This document shows, one piece after another, positions 14,203 to 27,276 of a stretch of DNA of 27,284 nt. Position 1 is the first letter of the stretch, and every line of letters begins with the position of its first letter. This DNA is from a virus. The notes beneath the pieces were generated by a model. It did not search any database. It was given only the letters and a program-made list of their open reading frames with translations, and was not told the DNA's origin. The stretch is taken from the IMG/VR virus record IMGVR_UViG_3300005577_000072, positions 1 through 27,284 of that record; one strand, 5' to 3'. The position numbers and the translations under genes were made by a program.

Positions 14203-16307
14203 TGCCTAGGAACGCGGCTGCTTCGATTGAGAATAACTTCCTAAAGGGCCTCATCACAGAGGCTACCGGGTTGAACTACCCGGAGAATTCCTGTATCGAA
14301 ACATGGGATTGTGAATTCGATTTCTTCGGCCGCGTTCTCCGTCGCCCCGGATTTGACCGGGAATTAAATGCCTCGCTGAATACTGTGTCTGTCTCGTCGA
14401 AGGTCAAGAACAAGTACCTTTGGAAGAACGTCACCGGTGACGGTACGGTGTCTTTCGTGGTCGTTCAGCTCGGCAGCACGTTATACTTCTACGACGCTAG
14501 TAATGTCAACGCGCTGTCTGCGGGGCTATCCGGCAATACTATTAACCTTGCGACGTACTCGGTTTCTTCGGCTCCCGCGCCTGCGCAATACAACTGTCAG
14601 TTCGCCGACGGTCAAGGAAAGCTTTTTGTTTTCCATCCGTATCTCGAACATATCTACATCACGTATAATTCGGGCACTGGTGTATTCACGGCCACTCAGT
14701 ATAACCTGATGGTACGGGACTTCGAAGGTGTATCCGATGGCCTAGCTGTTGACAACCGACCCACGTCGACTGTCGCGGGGTTGTCAGCAACCCATAAGTA
14801 CAACCTCTTTAATCAGGGTTGGTGCAAGGCTGACCTCACTACCCCTGAGCTGACTGCTTGGGATGGTGCGCGGACGGACATGCCCTCGAACTGCGATGTC
14901 TGGTGGAACTTCAAGAATTCCTCCGATGCCTTCGATACGGCGACTATTGCGAACTCTGGTCGAGGCAATACTCCTGCGGCTAAGGGCCACTTCATTCTGA
15001 ACTACTACAACCAAGACCGTACTACGGCTAGTGGCGTCTCTGTCTCCGCTACTACTTCCGGCACGGCTCGGGCTACCACTGGGGCATTCCATGCTGGACG
15101 GGTTTTCTACGCTGGTGTAAATGCCGTAGGTTACGAGAGCAAAATCCTCTTCACCCAAATCATCGAACGGAACGAGCAAGTTGGTTTTTGCTATCAAGCG
15201 AGCGACCCGACTTCCGAAGACCTTTTCGATCTGCTCCCCTCTGATGGTGGAGTGATTTCTCTCCCCGAAGCAGGGACGATCTATAAACTCTTTCCTGTCG
15301 CTGCTGGGCTTCTGGTCTTTGCGTACCGTGGCATTTGGCTGATCACTGGTTCAACTGGCATCGGGTTCACCGCGACGGACTTCACTGTCTCGCCTTTGAG
15401 CAACATCCGTACTGTCTCTGGGACGAGTTTCGTGAACGTCAACGGCTTTCCGATGTGGTGGAACACAGACGGTATCTTTACCGTACAAGGAAATCCCCTA
15501 CAGGCCCAGAGCATCTCTATCAGTACCATCCAGACGTTCTTCAACCAAATTCCGAACGCAGCTAAGACTGCGGCTAAGGGCACCTTCAACCCTCTCGATC
15601 AGACGGTTACATGGCTTTTCTCGACGACTAATCCGGGTACAACTGACGAACAGCACGCCTTCAACGCTGTCCTCATCTTTAACGTATTGACCGGGGCTTT
15701 CTATCCGTGGTCGATCTCCGCAGGCGCTACCGTCCATGACGTGGTAGTGGTCGATGGCGTCGGGGGTATCGTCAGTGAGACGTTGGTGGTGAATGATGCT
15801 GCCACGCAGGTCGTAGACGATGCAGCCAACAATGTCGTCGCTTATCTGCTCAGTAATGCCGCCATCACCCCGAAGACGAAGTTCCTTATTTCGTACAACA
15901 ACGGTTCCGACCGGGTGACATGGGCGGAAGCTAATGATACGGCCTATGTAGACTGGACTAGTATCCTAGGGACTGGTGTGAATTACACTAGTTATTTCAT
16001 CACCGGGTTCAAGCTGCGAGGATCAGCGTTAACGAAATTCCAGCCCTTGTATATGAGAATATACCACGAAGGTGTGGGCAAGTTCTATATCCGAGGTATT
16101 TGGGACTATTCCAACGAGACCAGTACCGGGCGATATACTACAAACCAACTCTGTTCCTTCGATGATGACCGATATACGAACAATTACCGAAGATTAAAAA
16201 TCAGAGGACAAGGTGTCTCTCTGCAATACTACATCCAGAGTTACCCCGGCGAGCCTTTCACTGTCATCGGCTGGGCCACTATGGATATGGGGAATGCACT
16301 ACCATGA
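14202..16307 (+). CDS. Tail tubular protein B (tail nozzle)
   Basis: The 701-aa product begins MPRNAAASIENNFLKGLITE, then ATGLNYPENSCIETWDCEFD, then FFGRVLRRPGFDRE, the hallmark start of podovirus nozzle proteins related to T7 gp12 (IENNF.KGL.TEATGLN.PEN). The rest is a large beta-rich protein with a propeller-like centre (YRGIWLITGSTGIGFTATDF, then a region with GFPMWWNTDGIFTVQGNP) and a C-terminal beta domain ending FTVIGWATMDMG. Six copies would form the tube and nozzle through which DNA leaves. It is somewhat shorter than T7 gp12 (794 aa). Its stop overlaps the GNAT gene (ATGA). Confidence 0.88.
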   Translation: MPRNAAASIENNFLKGLITEATGLNYPENSCIETWDCEFDFFGRVLRRPGFDRELNASLNTVSVSSKVKNKYLWKNVTGDGTVSFVVVQLGSTLYFYDASNVNALSAGLSGNTINLATYSVSSAPAPAQYNCQFADGQGKLFVFHPYLEHIYITYNSGTGVFTATQYNLMVRDFEGVSDGLAVDNRPTSTVAGLSATHKYNLFNQGWCKADLTTPELTAWDGARTDMPSNCDVWWNFKNSSDAFDTATIANSGRGNTPAAKGHFILNYYNQDRTTASGVSVSATTSGTARATTGAFHAGRVFYAGVNAVGYESKILFTQIIERNEQVGFCYQASDPTSEDLFDLLPSDGGVISLPEAGTIYKLFPVAAGLLVFAYRGIWLITGSTGIGFTATDFTVSPLSNIRTVSGTSFVNVNGFPMWWNTDGIFTVQGNPLQAQSISISTIQTFFNQIPNAAKTAAKGTFNPLDQTVTWLFSTTNPGTTDEQHAFNAVLIFNVLTGAFYPWSISAGATVHDVVVVDGVGGIVSETLVVNDAATQVVDDAANNVVAYLLSNAAITPKTKFLISYNNGSDRVTWAEANDTAYVDWTSILGTGVNYTSYFITGFKLRGSALTKFQPLYMRIYHEGVGKFYIRGIWDYSNETSTGRYTTNQLCSFDDDRYTNNYRRLKIRGQGVSLQYYIQSYPGEPFTVIGWATMDMGNALP

Positions 16308-16756
16308 ACTTGAAACTAGCTACGTTAGATGATCTCCCTGATGTTGTCCGGCTTGCCGAGGCTTTTGCTCATGAAAGCCCGTACGCCTCAGAGACGATTA
16401 CTGGAGAGATCGAACAATTTGCCAAAGACCTTCTCCGTGATCCGACGAAAGGTATTGTTGTTCTGTACGTCAAGGACGGCAAACCAGTCGGGTTGATCGG
16501 CGGTATCATCACGAAGATGCTGATGTCTCAGTCGCTCATTGCCACAGAGTTGATGTGGTACGTCGAGCCGGAGCATCGGGGCAGTCGAAAGAGCCTTGCC
16601 TTGAAAGAAGCCTTTGAATTCTGGGGTCGGAAGATGGGAGCGAAATTCATCGCTATGTCTTCGCTGCTCCAAAGTAACCCCAGTATCGAACGATACTATG
16701 ATCGGACTGGGTATAAGCTACAAGAGAAAGCTTATTTGAAAGTAGTAGGAGCCTAA
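16304..16756 (+). CDS. GNAT-fold acetyltransferase-like protein at the T7 gene 13 position
   Basis: The 150-aa product has the GNAT order: beta1 with LKLATLDDLPDVVRLAEAF (3-21), IVVLYVKDGKPVGLIGGII (51-69), then ELMWYVEPEHRGSRKSLALK (82-101), the acetyl-CoA loop region, and IERYYDRTGYKLQEKAYLKV (128-147), the usual C-terminal 'YxRxGY' part. The loop normally reads R/QxxGxG/A, but here it is RGSRKS (92-97) with the first glycine replaced. Activity is therefore uncertain, though phage members of this kind often vary there. It lies between nozzle and core protein genes, where T7 has gene 13, an internal virion protein remotely related to GNAT folds. It may be a virion-assembly protein or a real acetyltransferase acting on host or virion proteins. 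Confidence 0.82.
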   Translation: MNLKLATLDDLPDVVRLAEAFAHESPYASETITGEIEQFAKDLLRDPTKGIVVLYVKDGKPVGLIGGIITKMLMSQSLIATELMWYVEPEHRGSRKSLALKEAFEFWGRKMGAKFIAMSSLLQSNPSIERYYDRTGYKLQEKAYLKVVGA

Positions 16757-25265: not shown

Positions 25266-25526
25266 TTGTCAGCGGGGGATACGATCACCGACGTTCTAGA
25301 GAACGATATACCGGGGTTCTCTCCGTATCCGAACTTTAGGAAGTCGGAGAACATCGAAGACAGGCGGCATGACCCTGCTGTGCCTGTCGGTAAAGATGAG
25401 GAAAGTGGTTTCGATCTCAGTGACTACGGTCCAATCCCTGCGGAGACTGATCTCTCCAGAGCAGCGGGGACAGGAGCCCTGAAACCTAGGCCACCAATTC
25501 CCGATCTTCGGCGTAGATTTGAGTAA
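25266..25526 (+). CDS. Small open frame (86 aa) or C-terminal frameshift extension
   Basis: This frame ends TAATAA just before the terminator. If read as a separate gene its only start is TTG at 25266, with no Shine-Dalgarno sequence in the preceding 20 bases. The frame is, however, open upstream to 25200 and in the -1 phase relative to the 729-aa gene. It therefore reads naturally as the end of that protein after a -1 frameshift, joined through SVGGGRISAPR. The sequence is acidic, Pro/Asp/Arg-rich and probably disordered, with YPNFRKSENIEDRRHDPAVP (18-37) and PRPPIPDLRRRF near the end. No known domain is seen. Codon style matches the neighbours, so I think it is translated; how it starts is unsure. 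Confidence 0.5.
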   Translation: MSAGDTITDVLENDIPGFSPYPNFRKSENIEDRRHDPAVPVGKDEESGFDLSDYGPIPAETDLSRAAGTGALKPRPPIPDLRRRFE

Positions 25527-25530
25527 TAAA

Positions 25531-25566
25531 AAACCCCCTTGGCCAAAGCCTTGGGGGTTTCTTTTT
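25531..25566. terminator. Strong bidirectional terminator between convergent operons
   Basis: AAACCCCC (25531-25538) pairs with GGGGGTTT (25553-25560). After a TT/TT internal loop, GGC (25541-25543) pairs with GCC (25548-25550) around a CAAA loop. Rightward it is followed by CTTTTTGTTT. Leftward the reverse strand continues TTTTTTATTACT. It can thus stop both the structural transcript and the minus-strand operon. Confidence 0.93.
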
Positions 25567-25568
25567 GT

Positions 25569-25682
25569 TTAGTCCTTAAGACCCTTTTTCTTATCGATTT
25601 TCAGGTCTTTCTTGGAGCCTTCTTTAATGCCCTTCTTCTTATCGAGGGCCTTGTCTTTAGTGCTCTTTGAGGCTTTTGCCAT
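25569..25682 (-). CDS. Lysine-rich 37-aa peptide with an internal duplication
   Basis: Read on the minus strand, ATG at 25682 overlaps the TAA of the preceding gene (TAATG), with AGGA just upstream. The product has 37 residues, 15 of them lysine. It contains two near-identical units, ALDKKKGIKE (12-21) and KIDKKKGLKD (28-37). No membrane segment or cysteine is present. Such a basic peptide could bind nucleic acid or an acidic host protein, or act as a small regulator. It is the last gene before the terminator. Coupled start, clean stop and codon use consistent with neighbours argue that it is real; no family is recognised. Confidence 0.6.
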   Translation of the reverse strand: MAKASKSTKDKALDKKKGIKEGSKKDLKIDKKKGLKD

Positions 25683-25975
25683 TATCCTAATACTCCCATG
25701 ATTTTCTTCTGCATTTCGTCGACCCACCGTTCCTTGATCATAAGCCGCATCTGGATATCATCTAGATACTTCTTAGGGACTTGGAAAGGCAGGCTTCGGC
25801 TGGTGCTGTCGAAGAATAAATCGAGGATGTACTCCTCACGGCTCTTGAAGACGTTGTACTTGTGGTATATCTTAAGCCGCGCTCGACGAGTCGTTCCGTA
25901 CAGGCGGTGGAACCAATCCTGTAGTTGTTCCATTTCCCGTTCCAGCAGGGGTTTGTGGTCGCTTAGGTCTGTCAT
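25682..25975 (-). CDS. Hypothetical protein (97 aa)
   Basis: I choose ATG 25975 with GAGGG just upstream, rather than an in-frame TTG at 26005. The product is helical and highly charged: an acidic first helix (SDHKPLLEREMEQLQDWFHR, 5-24), a basic middle (TTRRARLKIYHKYNVFKSRE, 28-47) and a C-terminal helix with KERWVDEMQKKIMG. There are no membrane spans. The function is not recognised. Its first 104 bases overlap the 3' end of the upstream diphosphohydrolase-like gene in another frame, an unusually long overlap for this window. It ends TAATG at the lysine-rich peptide gene. Confidence 0.65.
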   Translation of the reverse strand: MTDLSDHKPLLEREMEQLQDWFHRLYGTTRRARLKIYHKYNVFKSREEYILDLFFDSTSRSLPFQVPKKYLDDIQMRLMIKERWVDEMQKKIMGVLG

Positions 25976-26324
25976 CGTTCCCTCTGTTCCAAGCCGTGTA
26001 GGCAATCAAGAAGAAGATATTGGTCGCGGCGTGCCATAAGTGATGTTCGCCCGTGTCTTGGTCCTTGTCCTCACCCCCCCACCAAGCATTGATATGACGT
26101 ATAGCCGCGTCAGTTGGGCGTGACCAATCCATGCCCTGTTCCCAGTTCCTCGGGGCATACTTCCTAGCGCCAATTCCAAGGATCGTAGCAACTGCTTTAA
26201 CGCCTTCAACTGGGACGAGGTGAAAGCTGTCGATCCCGAGCCACTCACTCCACTTGAACTTGCCATGATCGAATTTGACTCCTTGCTTGTTGATGTCGTC
26301 TCCGGGACGTAACTGCTCAGCCAT
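25872..26324 (-). CDS. dATP/dGTP diphosphohydrolase-like protein (DUF5664-type)
   Basis: The start ATG 26324 overlaps the DUF4406 stop by eight bases; the frame is open farther upstream but only through that gene. The 150-aa product shows the phage family often named 'dATP/dGTP diphosphohydrolase, N-terminal': KFDHGKFKWSEW (17-28), HLVPVEGVKAVATILGIGAR (35-54), KYAPRNWEQGMDWSR (55-69) and AIRHINAWWGGEDKDQDTGE (74-93), then HHLWHAATNIFFLIAY (94-109). Acidic Glu85/Asp86 and the His cluster (94, 95, 98) are candidate metal ligands. Related enzymes turn dNTPs into dNMPs, changing nucleotide pools. The last about 32 residues are Pro/Thr/Gly-rich and lie in the overlap with the next gene. Family call good, substrate unknown. 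Confidence 0.72.
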   Translation of the reverse strand: MAEQLRPGDDINKQGVKFDHGKFKWSEWLGIDSFHLVPVEGVKAVATILGIGARKYAPRNWEQGMDWSRPTDAAIRHINAWWGGEDKDQDTGEHHLWHAATNIFFLIAYTAWNRGNDDRPKRPQTPAGTGNGTTTGLVPPPVRNDSSSAA

Positions 26325-26679
26325 AGATGATTTGATACTCCGGGTTCTGGGCCTTAGCGAACTGGGCCACAGCCCACTCAGCTCTAGCGCCTGTGCTCTT
26401 TTCCCATCCGGGCAGGAGGTAAATCGCATCGCTGTTGATAACCTTGTCACAATCCCACGTGAAAGCGGATTTCCAATCCCATCCTTCATCGACCAGTGAG
26501 CGATTATCTCCCGTAGAGAAGGAACTGTGGGTCTGTACATCTTTCTCTGTTTCCTTCGCAGCGGGGTTCCAGACCTTCCAACCTTGACGTTCCAACGTGT
26601 ACTGAGCCGTAAAGAAAGCCGGGAAGTTGAACTCCGGGTAGCCGCTCATCGGCCCTGCGATATAAATCTGCTTAGGCAT
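26317..26679 (-). CDS. DUF4406 protein (nucleoside 2-deoxyribosyltransferase-like fold)
   Basis: The 120-aa product has GGAGG (minus strand, 26693-26689) before ATG 26679. It begins KQIYIAGPMSGYPEFNFPAF (3-22), the signature of DUF4406. It continues with GWKVWNPA (33-40), a DWKSAFTWDCDKVINSDAIY run (68-87) and LLPGWEKSTGARAEWAVAQF (88-107), where Glu101 corresponds to the catalytic Glu of deoxyribosyltransferases. The fold is related to nucleoside 2-deoxyribosyltransferases, which move deoxyribose between bases, and more remotely to TIR domains. The real substrate of DUF4406 proteins in phages is not established. It shares 8-base overlaps on both sides, in a row with a second such fold at 26836. 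Confidence 0.85.
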   Translation of the reverse strand: MPKQIYIAGPMSGYPEFNFPAFFTAQYTLERQGWKVWNPAAKETEKDVQTHSSFSTGDNRSLVDEGWDWKSAFTWDCDKVINSDAIYLLPGWEKSTGARAEWAVAQFAKAQNPEYQIIYG

Positions 26680-26839
26680 CTTGAGTTTCCTCCGGGGCTT
26701 CGGTTTCCTTAGGTTGCTGCTCTTGAAGCTGGACGTTAAGCTTCTCGATCAGGAACTTGACATCAGCGTACGGGAGTTTACCGAGAGCAGCGCCGATGAT
26801 CTGGACTTCTTCAACCGTGACATTCAAATTGAAATTCAT
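26672..26839 (-). CDS. Conserved small phage protein (55 aa)
   Basis: The start ATG 26839 has GGAGA upstream and forms ATGA with the stop of the preceding gene. An earlier in-frame start at 26905 would run inside that gene. The product reads MNFNLNVTVEEVQIIGAALG, then KLPYADVKFLIEKLNVQLQE, then a Gln/Glu/Pro-rich tail: one short strand and two helices followed by a disordered acidic end. Small proteins with the 'NVTVEEV..I..ALGKLPY..V..LI.K' pattern are common in phages, and no function is known to me. It overlaps the DUF4406 gene by eight bases. Confidence 0.72.
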   Translation of the reverse strand: MNFNLNVTVEEVQIIGAALGKLPYADVKFLIEKLNVQLQEQQPKETEAPEETQDA

Positions 26840-27276
26840 CTGTAGTTCTCCAATCCTTGGATTAAGTCTTCTTTGTTCGTAAAAATATCCGTAGCGAAAT
26901 TCCACATTACATCATAGCGATCAGGAACCCCATCAAGAAGGATGAAGCCGGGCTTAGCGGGTCCGCCCCCACAGCCACCAGTAAACCATCCAAGCTCAAG
27001 ATGGCCACTCCTGCCCGCAGGCATAATAAGAACAGCCAGATCACACCGTCGAAGATGTGTCGTATCGAACTCGAAGGTGTGTCTAGCAGCGTAACCATAG
27101 ACTGAGGTCTTAAGGTCGCGACCCCGAATATGCTCGTAGTCACGCCACTTGTCGTCGGCCTCATGCCCCGCTCCATACCAATCATCGAATGCGTCCCAGC
27201 CTGCGGCTCGAAGACTGTTCCCGATAATGGGAATGTTTTCATTCCGCAGGCTTCCGATTATGTACACGGATTTCAT
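26836..27276 (-). CDS. Nucleoside 2-deoxyribosyltransferase-like protein
   Basis: The 146-aa product opens MKSVYIIGSLRNENIPIIGN, followed by AGWDAFDDW (25-33) and a KWRDYEHIRGRDLKTSVYGY segment (43-62). It then has ARHTFEFDTTHLRRCDLAVL (64-83) and MPAGRSGHLELGWFTGGCGG (85-104). Glu94 in SGHLELG sits where the family nucleophile is found, and the Gly-rich loop precedes the strand FILLDGVPDRYDVMW (111-125). Family members exchange bases on deoxyribose or hydrolyse the N-glycosidic bond. It is the first complete gene of the leftward operon in this window. Its start lies eight bases from the right edge, so the upstream gene and ribosome site are not visible; a TAATG coupling is suggested by the bases present. 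Confidence 0.8.
   Translation of the reverse strand: MKSVYIIGSLRNENIPIIGNSLRAAGWDAFDDWYGAGHEADDKWRDYEHIRGRDLKTSVYGYAARHTFEFDTTHLRRCDLAVLIMPAGRSGHLELGWFTGGCGGGPAKPGFILLDGVPDRYDVMWNFATDIFTNKEDLIQGLENYR

Follow-up and report, generated by a model that had tools for sequence, protein, structure and literature searches.

A recurrent trio of phage genes that may dismantle deoxynucleotides in series

If the phages concerned have ordinary DNA, why would they destroy DNA precursors? This directly testable question is raised by a minus-strand run of genes in a 27,284-base viral record (the window), whose terminase is nearest to those of Lentibacter, Celeribacter, and Roseobacter phages such as ICBM1, P12053L, and SIO1 (∼60%). 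The plus strand of the window carries structural genes, and the minus-strand run comes in from the right edge and stops at a strong hairpin (fold energies of -22.3 and -19.9 kcal/mol; z -3.9 and -3.4). An initial annotation had placed here a trio of nucleotide-handling genes, all of which are present at that place and on that strand, DUF4406 and DUF5664 being recognized by Pfam and P0002 by PHROG and AlphaFold2 (Table 1). The description of the three as overlapping holds for DUF4406 and DUF5664, which share 8 nt; P0002 and the DUF4406 gene P0001 have no mutual overlap and are separated by a 55-aa ORF, P0003, which bridges them by overlapping P0002 by 4 nt and P0001 by 8 nt. Successive overlaps among the first five ORFs of the run are thus 4, 8, 8, and 104 nt. 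A search of the phage collection returned no homologue of P0004, matches in a promoter scan were no more frequent than in shuffled sequences, and NCBIfam and PADLOC family searches gave nothing informative.

Table 1. Features of the minus-strand run, in order of transcription, and of the hairpin at its end.
Feature	Position	Strand	Evidence
P0002, 146-aa NDT-fold protein, predicted (deoxy)nucleoside-monophosphate N-glycosidase	26836-27276	-	phrog_12607, AlphaFold2, Foldseek, triad Tyr5/Asp71/Glu94
P0003, 55-aa ORF between P0002 and P0001	26672-26839	-	no family match
P0001, DUF4406 (PF14359), distant NDT-superfamily protein	26317-26679	-	Pfam, profile matches, triad Tyr6/Asp76/Glu101, Ser95 (phosphate-binding position)
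P0005, stand-alone DUF5664/PF18909 (dGTP_diPhyd_N), predicted dATP/dGTP/dUTP pyrophosphohydrolase	25872-26324	-	Pfam, profile match to Wayne DUF5664
P0004, 97-aa ORF, candidate module member	25682-25975	-	overlaps DUF5664 3' end by 104 nt
37-aa Lys-rich ORF, last of run	25569-25682	-	ORF list
Terminator-like hairpin between convergent operons	25526-25568	.	U-tract on each strand

The first gene of the run, P0002, had no Pfam match and was assigned to its PHROG family (“nucleoside deoxyribosyltransferase”) at E 2e-11. Its AlphaFold2 model (mean pLDDT 96.9) is that of an NDT-fold protein: the top Foldseek match in the PDB was the transferase 7o62 (E 9e-5, probability 1.00), with the CMP N-glycosidase MilB (4jem) also found and DNPH1 (8qhq) lower down. 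Tyr5, Asp71, and Glu94, the catalytic triad, are invariant in 46/46 P0002-family proteins. Among PDB sequences, the P0002 profile weakly finds MilB and BcmB; these CMP/hmCMP hydrolases are the nearest solved relatives of P0002 by sequence.

P0001 matched PF14359 (DUF4406) at E 9e-20. A PDB search with its sequence found nothing useful; the DUF4406 profile gave weak matches to BcmB (E 0.007) and the NDT 7m5h (E 0.016), and matched the P0002-family profile at 95.6% probability, which makes the two families distant relatives. The triad is nearly unbroken, with Glu101 in all 41 proteins compared and Tyr6 and Asp76 in 40/41 each. On its NDT-type sequence and this triad we assign P0001 to the NDT superfamily.

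In NDTs, an Asp six residues before the nucleophile serves in recognition of the 5'-OH. This feature of the transferase branch, seen in 7m5h, is missing in both families: the position is Gly in 46/46 P0002-family proteins, in a Gly-[Lys/Arg]-Ser sequence, and Ser in 41/41 DUF4406 proteins. In DNPH1, which has the catalytic residues Tyr24, Asp80, and Glu104, the residue six before the nucleophile is Ser98, which holds the phosphate (PMC10603095). With Ser or Gly in place of the transferase Asp, both families appear more like monophosphate N-glycosidases, and their pockets seem to resemble those of DNPH1/MilB-type nucleotide N-glycosidases more closely than those of nucleoside transferases. P0002 shares with DNPH1 and MilB/BcmB the NDT fold and the Tyr/Asp/Glu triad, and with MilB a His-x-Glu-[Leu/Ile]-Gly motif, and DUF4406 shares the triad and the Ser; unlike in DNPH1 and MilB, however, the P0002 phosphate loop is Gly-[Lys/Arg]-Ser, and identity to them is very low (∼16%).

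Public records label both families nucleoside deoxyribosyltransferases, and these annotations, together with the top Foldseek match, would fit a salvage role in which P0002 and/or DUF4406 swap bases between deoxynucleosides. We consider such a role unlikely, given the replacement of the transferase Asp in every protein of both families and the linkage and fusion of these partners to a pyrophosphohydrolase whose products would be dNMPs rather than nucleosides, which argues for dNMP substrates. No activity of a P0002-family or DUF4406 protein was reported in the literature searched.

The third protein, P0005, consists of a lone PF18909 domain (Pfam E 2e-27; 95.4 bits vs. a cut-off of 27), and a Pfam scan found no DUF550 (PF04447) domain in it. 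The Pfam name was rejected as sole proof of an enzyme, since in Acinetobacter phage SH-Ab 15497 the same domain is fused to DUF550 (MazZ type), an arrangement unlike that of P0005 and of the trio genomes, which have no DUF550. Support for activity comes instead from a published assay, in which the stand-alone DUF5664 of Arthrobacter phage Wayne converted dATP, dGTP, and dUTP to monophosphates (PMC12884076). The P0005-family profile matched this protein at 99.8% probability over 108 columns, and P0005 retains Lys55, Trp61, His77, Asp88, His95, Asp117, and Arg119; cleavage of dNTPs to dNMP and PPi is accordingly predicted for it by homology. PDB sequence searches with P0005 and the DUF5664 profile found no solved relative, and Foldseek with the helical DUF5664 model returned only noise, including the MazG-like DR2231 at E > 4. 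In two relatives (G002, L033:14431-14901; G003, L035:12636-13148), Asp replaces the nearly invariant His95 and the Gly-Glu motif carries an insertion; the activity of these proteins may be altered.

The whole trio recurs in the same order in three viral contigs of 49-51 kb (G001-G003), where it converges with the structural genes and closes a block of primase-helicase, family A polymerase, Cas4-like exonuclease, endonuclease VII, and metallophosphoesterase genes. Between the window and these contigs, P0002 is more conserved (68-71% identity) than the terminase (61-64%). The slot of P0003 is occupied by a different 82-aa ORF in G001 and G003, and G002 has a comparable 48-aa Lys-rich ORF (L033:15027-15173) at the place of the 37-aa ORF of the window.

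Wider scans used our own HMMs, with loci picked by similarity to this cluster and the best 80 kept per scan. Among the 73 distinct P0002-family loci obtained in this way, DUF5664 was the commonest neighbor (30 loci), followed by endonuclease VII (15), DUF4406 (12), ThyX (11), and dCMP deaminase (6); the strict order NDT-DUF4406-DUF5664 occurred nine times in the loci from these scans. After dereplication at 70% identity, and against a null of simple random placement that ignores operons, 19 of the 27 NDT loci with a DUF5664 had it on the same strand and no more than 1 kb away (2.4 expected; upstream in 9, downstream in 10). For DUF4406 the figure was 9 of 11 (1.3 expected), and for DUF5664 beside DUF4406 it was 31 of 32 (3.3 expected), all among the best 80 per scan. 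Nine ORFs among the matches listed are DUF4406-DUF5664 fusions. Rather than the scattered placement that would speak against a common pathway, then, the genes of the trio, as a set or in pairs, were found together far more often than random placement predicts.

The trio is also present in three genomes (G009, G010, and G011) with no detectable relative of the window terminase, and two others (G007 and G008) have only remote relatives of it. At two loci (L088 and L120) the DUF5664 gives no useful BLAST alignment to P0005, yet PF18909 recognizes both. Unrelated terminases and divergent DUF5664 sequences suggest that this gene set came together, or moved, on more than one occasion. Roughly half the viral P0002-family loci among the best 80 per scan had no DUF5664 nearby, nor did any of the 43 cellular loci, and P0002 proteins would therefore also work without DUF5664. 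The closest cellular relatives are largely from Patescibacteria and archaea; P0002 relatives in such MAGs (L285-L292, L294, and L295; 41-55% identity, no DUF5664 nearby) may be cellular or viral genes.

For the proteins of the window we infer reactions, step order, base specificity, and purpose as follows. P0005 would cleave particular dNTPs to dNMP and PPi, and in a retaining mechanism of two steps P0002 and/or P0001 would next split the dNMP at its N-glycosidic bond, with Glu94 (P0002) or Glu101 (P0001) as nucleophile and Asp71 or Asp76 as acid, releasing the base and deoxyribose-5-phosphate. Because two steps in series would keep the dNMP from being re-phosphorylated, the dNTP would be removed for good, and the likely purpose would be a rebalanced or sanitised pool of dNTPs while the phage replicates. 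That the trio is a serial line of this kind, trimming or sanitising the pool, we regard as somewhat probable. For the more general suggestion of the initial annotation, a nucleotide-handling trio acting in one pathway, support is good: the genes co-occur, some are fused, their catalytic residues are intact, and activity has been published for a stand-alone DUF5664. Against the line stand the oddity, for a phage, of destroying dNTPs with no recognized dNTP-synthesis gene, the missing His of the G002 and G003 DUF5664 proteins, and the frequency with which the P0002 family occurs apart from DUF5664.

Such a line has so far been described only in altered-adenine phages, and phages with altered DNA are the only ones for which stand-alone DUF5664 activity is known. 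In the PurZ0 phages Wayne and Ghobes, as here, a stand-alone DUF5664 (DUF5664-1/DutZ) is encoded close to an NDT-fold gene, in Wayne that of DmtZ, and the expected logic is likewise dNTP to dNMP to base. DmtZ is a dAMP hydrolase/transferase of related fold from 2-aminoadenine (Z) phages that converts dAMP to adenine and is distinguished by Asn77 and Asp12 in Ghobes numbering (PMC12884076). Identity of P0002 or P0001 with DmtZ was rejected: there was no phmmer match, Asp71 and Asp76 occupy the Asn77 position, and the counterparts of Asp12, aligned by motif, are Arg11 in P0002 and Ser12 in P0001. The second enzyme here thus belongs to a different branch of the superfamily, and DUF4406, absent from Wayne, Ghobes, SH-Ab 15497, NMeng1, and ParKuw1, is added.

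The precedent of DUF5664 with an NDT-fold partner in Z-DNA phages (PMC12884076) raises the possibility, put forward in the initial annotation, that the trio helps to make or protect a modified base, by removing a canonical dNTP and so favoring incorporation of a modified one (2-aminoadenine or other). PurZ (PF00709) was found in none of G001-G013, some of which, like the window, are fragments, whereas the controls Wayne and Ghobes were positive; DUF550/MazZ (PF04447) was found in none of ten trio genomes, with SH-Ab 15497 as positive control. Trio-bearing relatives are thus unlike Wayne and Ghobes, and a Z-DNA phage was rejected on these absences. The initial annotation called for a search for base-modification enzymes; a scan of 44 proteins of the relative G003 recognized no family of this kind. 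Trio-bearing phages do not appear to have altered adenine, and with neither NDT-fold protein carrying the distinguishing residues of DmtZ, we hold a base-modification pathway to be very improbable.

As to the base on which the line would act, the evidence points in different directions: the Wayne DUF5664, the kcat of which is highest on dATP, suggests a purine, whereas the likeness to MilB and the ThyX and dCMP deaminase neighbors suggest a pyrimidine. A substrate-specific version of the serial line would accordingly have dUTP or a modified pyrimidine dNTP as true substrate, with DUF5664 replacing a dUTPase and P0002 or DUF4406 cleaving dUMP, hmdUMP, or another odd dNMP in the manner of DNPH1. 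It is favored by the hydrolysis of dUTP by the Wayne enzyme (PMC12884076), by MilB and BcmB as nearest solved relatives of P0002, and by the recurrence of ThyX and dCMP deaminase beside the P0002 family, but the Wayne enzyme turns over dATP fastest and the scanned G003 genes include no recognized ThyX, dCMP deaminase, or dUTPase. We regard it as a credible but distinctly less probable reading.

The serial line might also serve counter-defence, by draining a nucleotide such as dAMP that feeds a host immune signal or by degrading the signal directly. Such a purpose is possible in view of the dAMP depletion by which phages are reported to counter the dITP-based defence Kongming (PMC12948488); a line from dATP through dAMP to adenine would deplete dAMP and so also starve a dITP-type defence, and the module is found in unrelated phages. 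Nevertheless, in relatives the genes lie in a replication operon, and there was no PADLOC match, a weak test in that PADLOC is a library of defence systems. The initial annotation's proposal that nucleotide signals are removed rested on a remote fold likeness to TIR domains, and we found nothing that ties the trio to NAD or cyclic ADP-ribose substrates. Overall we think a counter-defence role doubtful. In its broadest form, a mobile dNTP-to-base module of ordinary-DNA phages, with two NDT-fold glycosidases for different bases, would drain dAMP/dATP or another deoxynucleotide and blind nucleotide-sensing immunity, an idea we likewise offer as a long shot.

Should the serial line be correct, a concrete substrate class could be given to two families common in phages: DUF4406, so far listed as a domain of unknown function, and the P0002 family, so far only annotated “deoxyribosyltransferase,” both of which recur beside DUF5664. 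In the literature searched, which lay mostly outside subscription journals, DUF4406 is mentioned in three unrelated papers and DUF5664 in one, and the trio was not described. The cultured Nostoc phage NMeng1 (OQ540924) resembles the trio phages in that a DUF5664 gene overlaps a P0002-family gene, the pair lying in a replication block that also encodes a helicase and a DNA polymerase; it differs from them in having no DUF4406, in belonging to a different phage family, and in its divergent DUF5664. Paracoccus phage ParKuw1 has a P0002 homologue and no DUF5664; the block that holds the homologue also encodes a protein annotated as a pyrophosphatase.

Three further observations concern other parts of these genomes. 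Among the structural genes of the window, a 150-aa ORF (16304-16756) with no counterpart in G001-G003 looks GNAT acetyltransferase-like by eye. About 2 kb upstream of the G003 NDT gene lies a gene for a SLOG protein (YspA/cpYpsA-related, PF10686, a nucleotide-binding family; L035:9591-9989), which has a counterpart in G001. Upstream of the replication block of G003 (L037:2389-10197; G003 42389-50197), and also in G001 and G002, is a cluster of gamma-glutamyl cyclotransferase-like, peptidase C26/GATase, GATase_6, phiEco32-like COOH-NH2 ligase, and Amidoligase_2 genes, possibly a peptide or amide tagging system.
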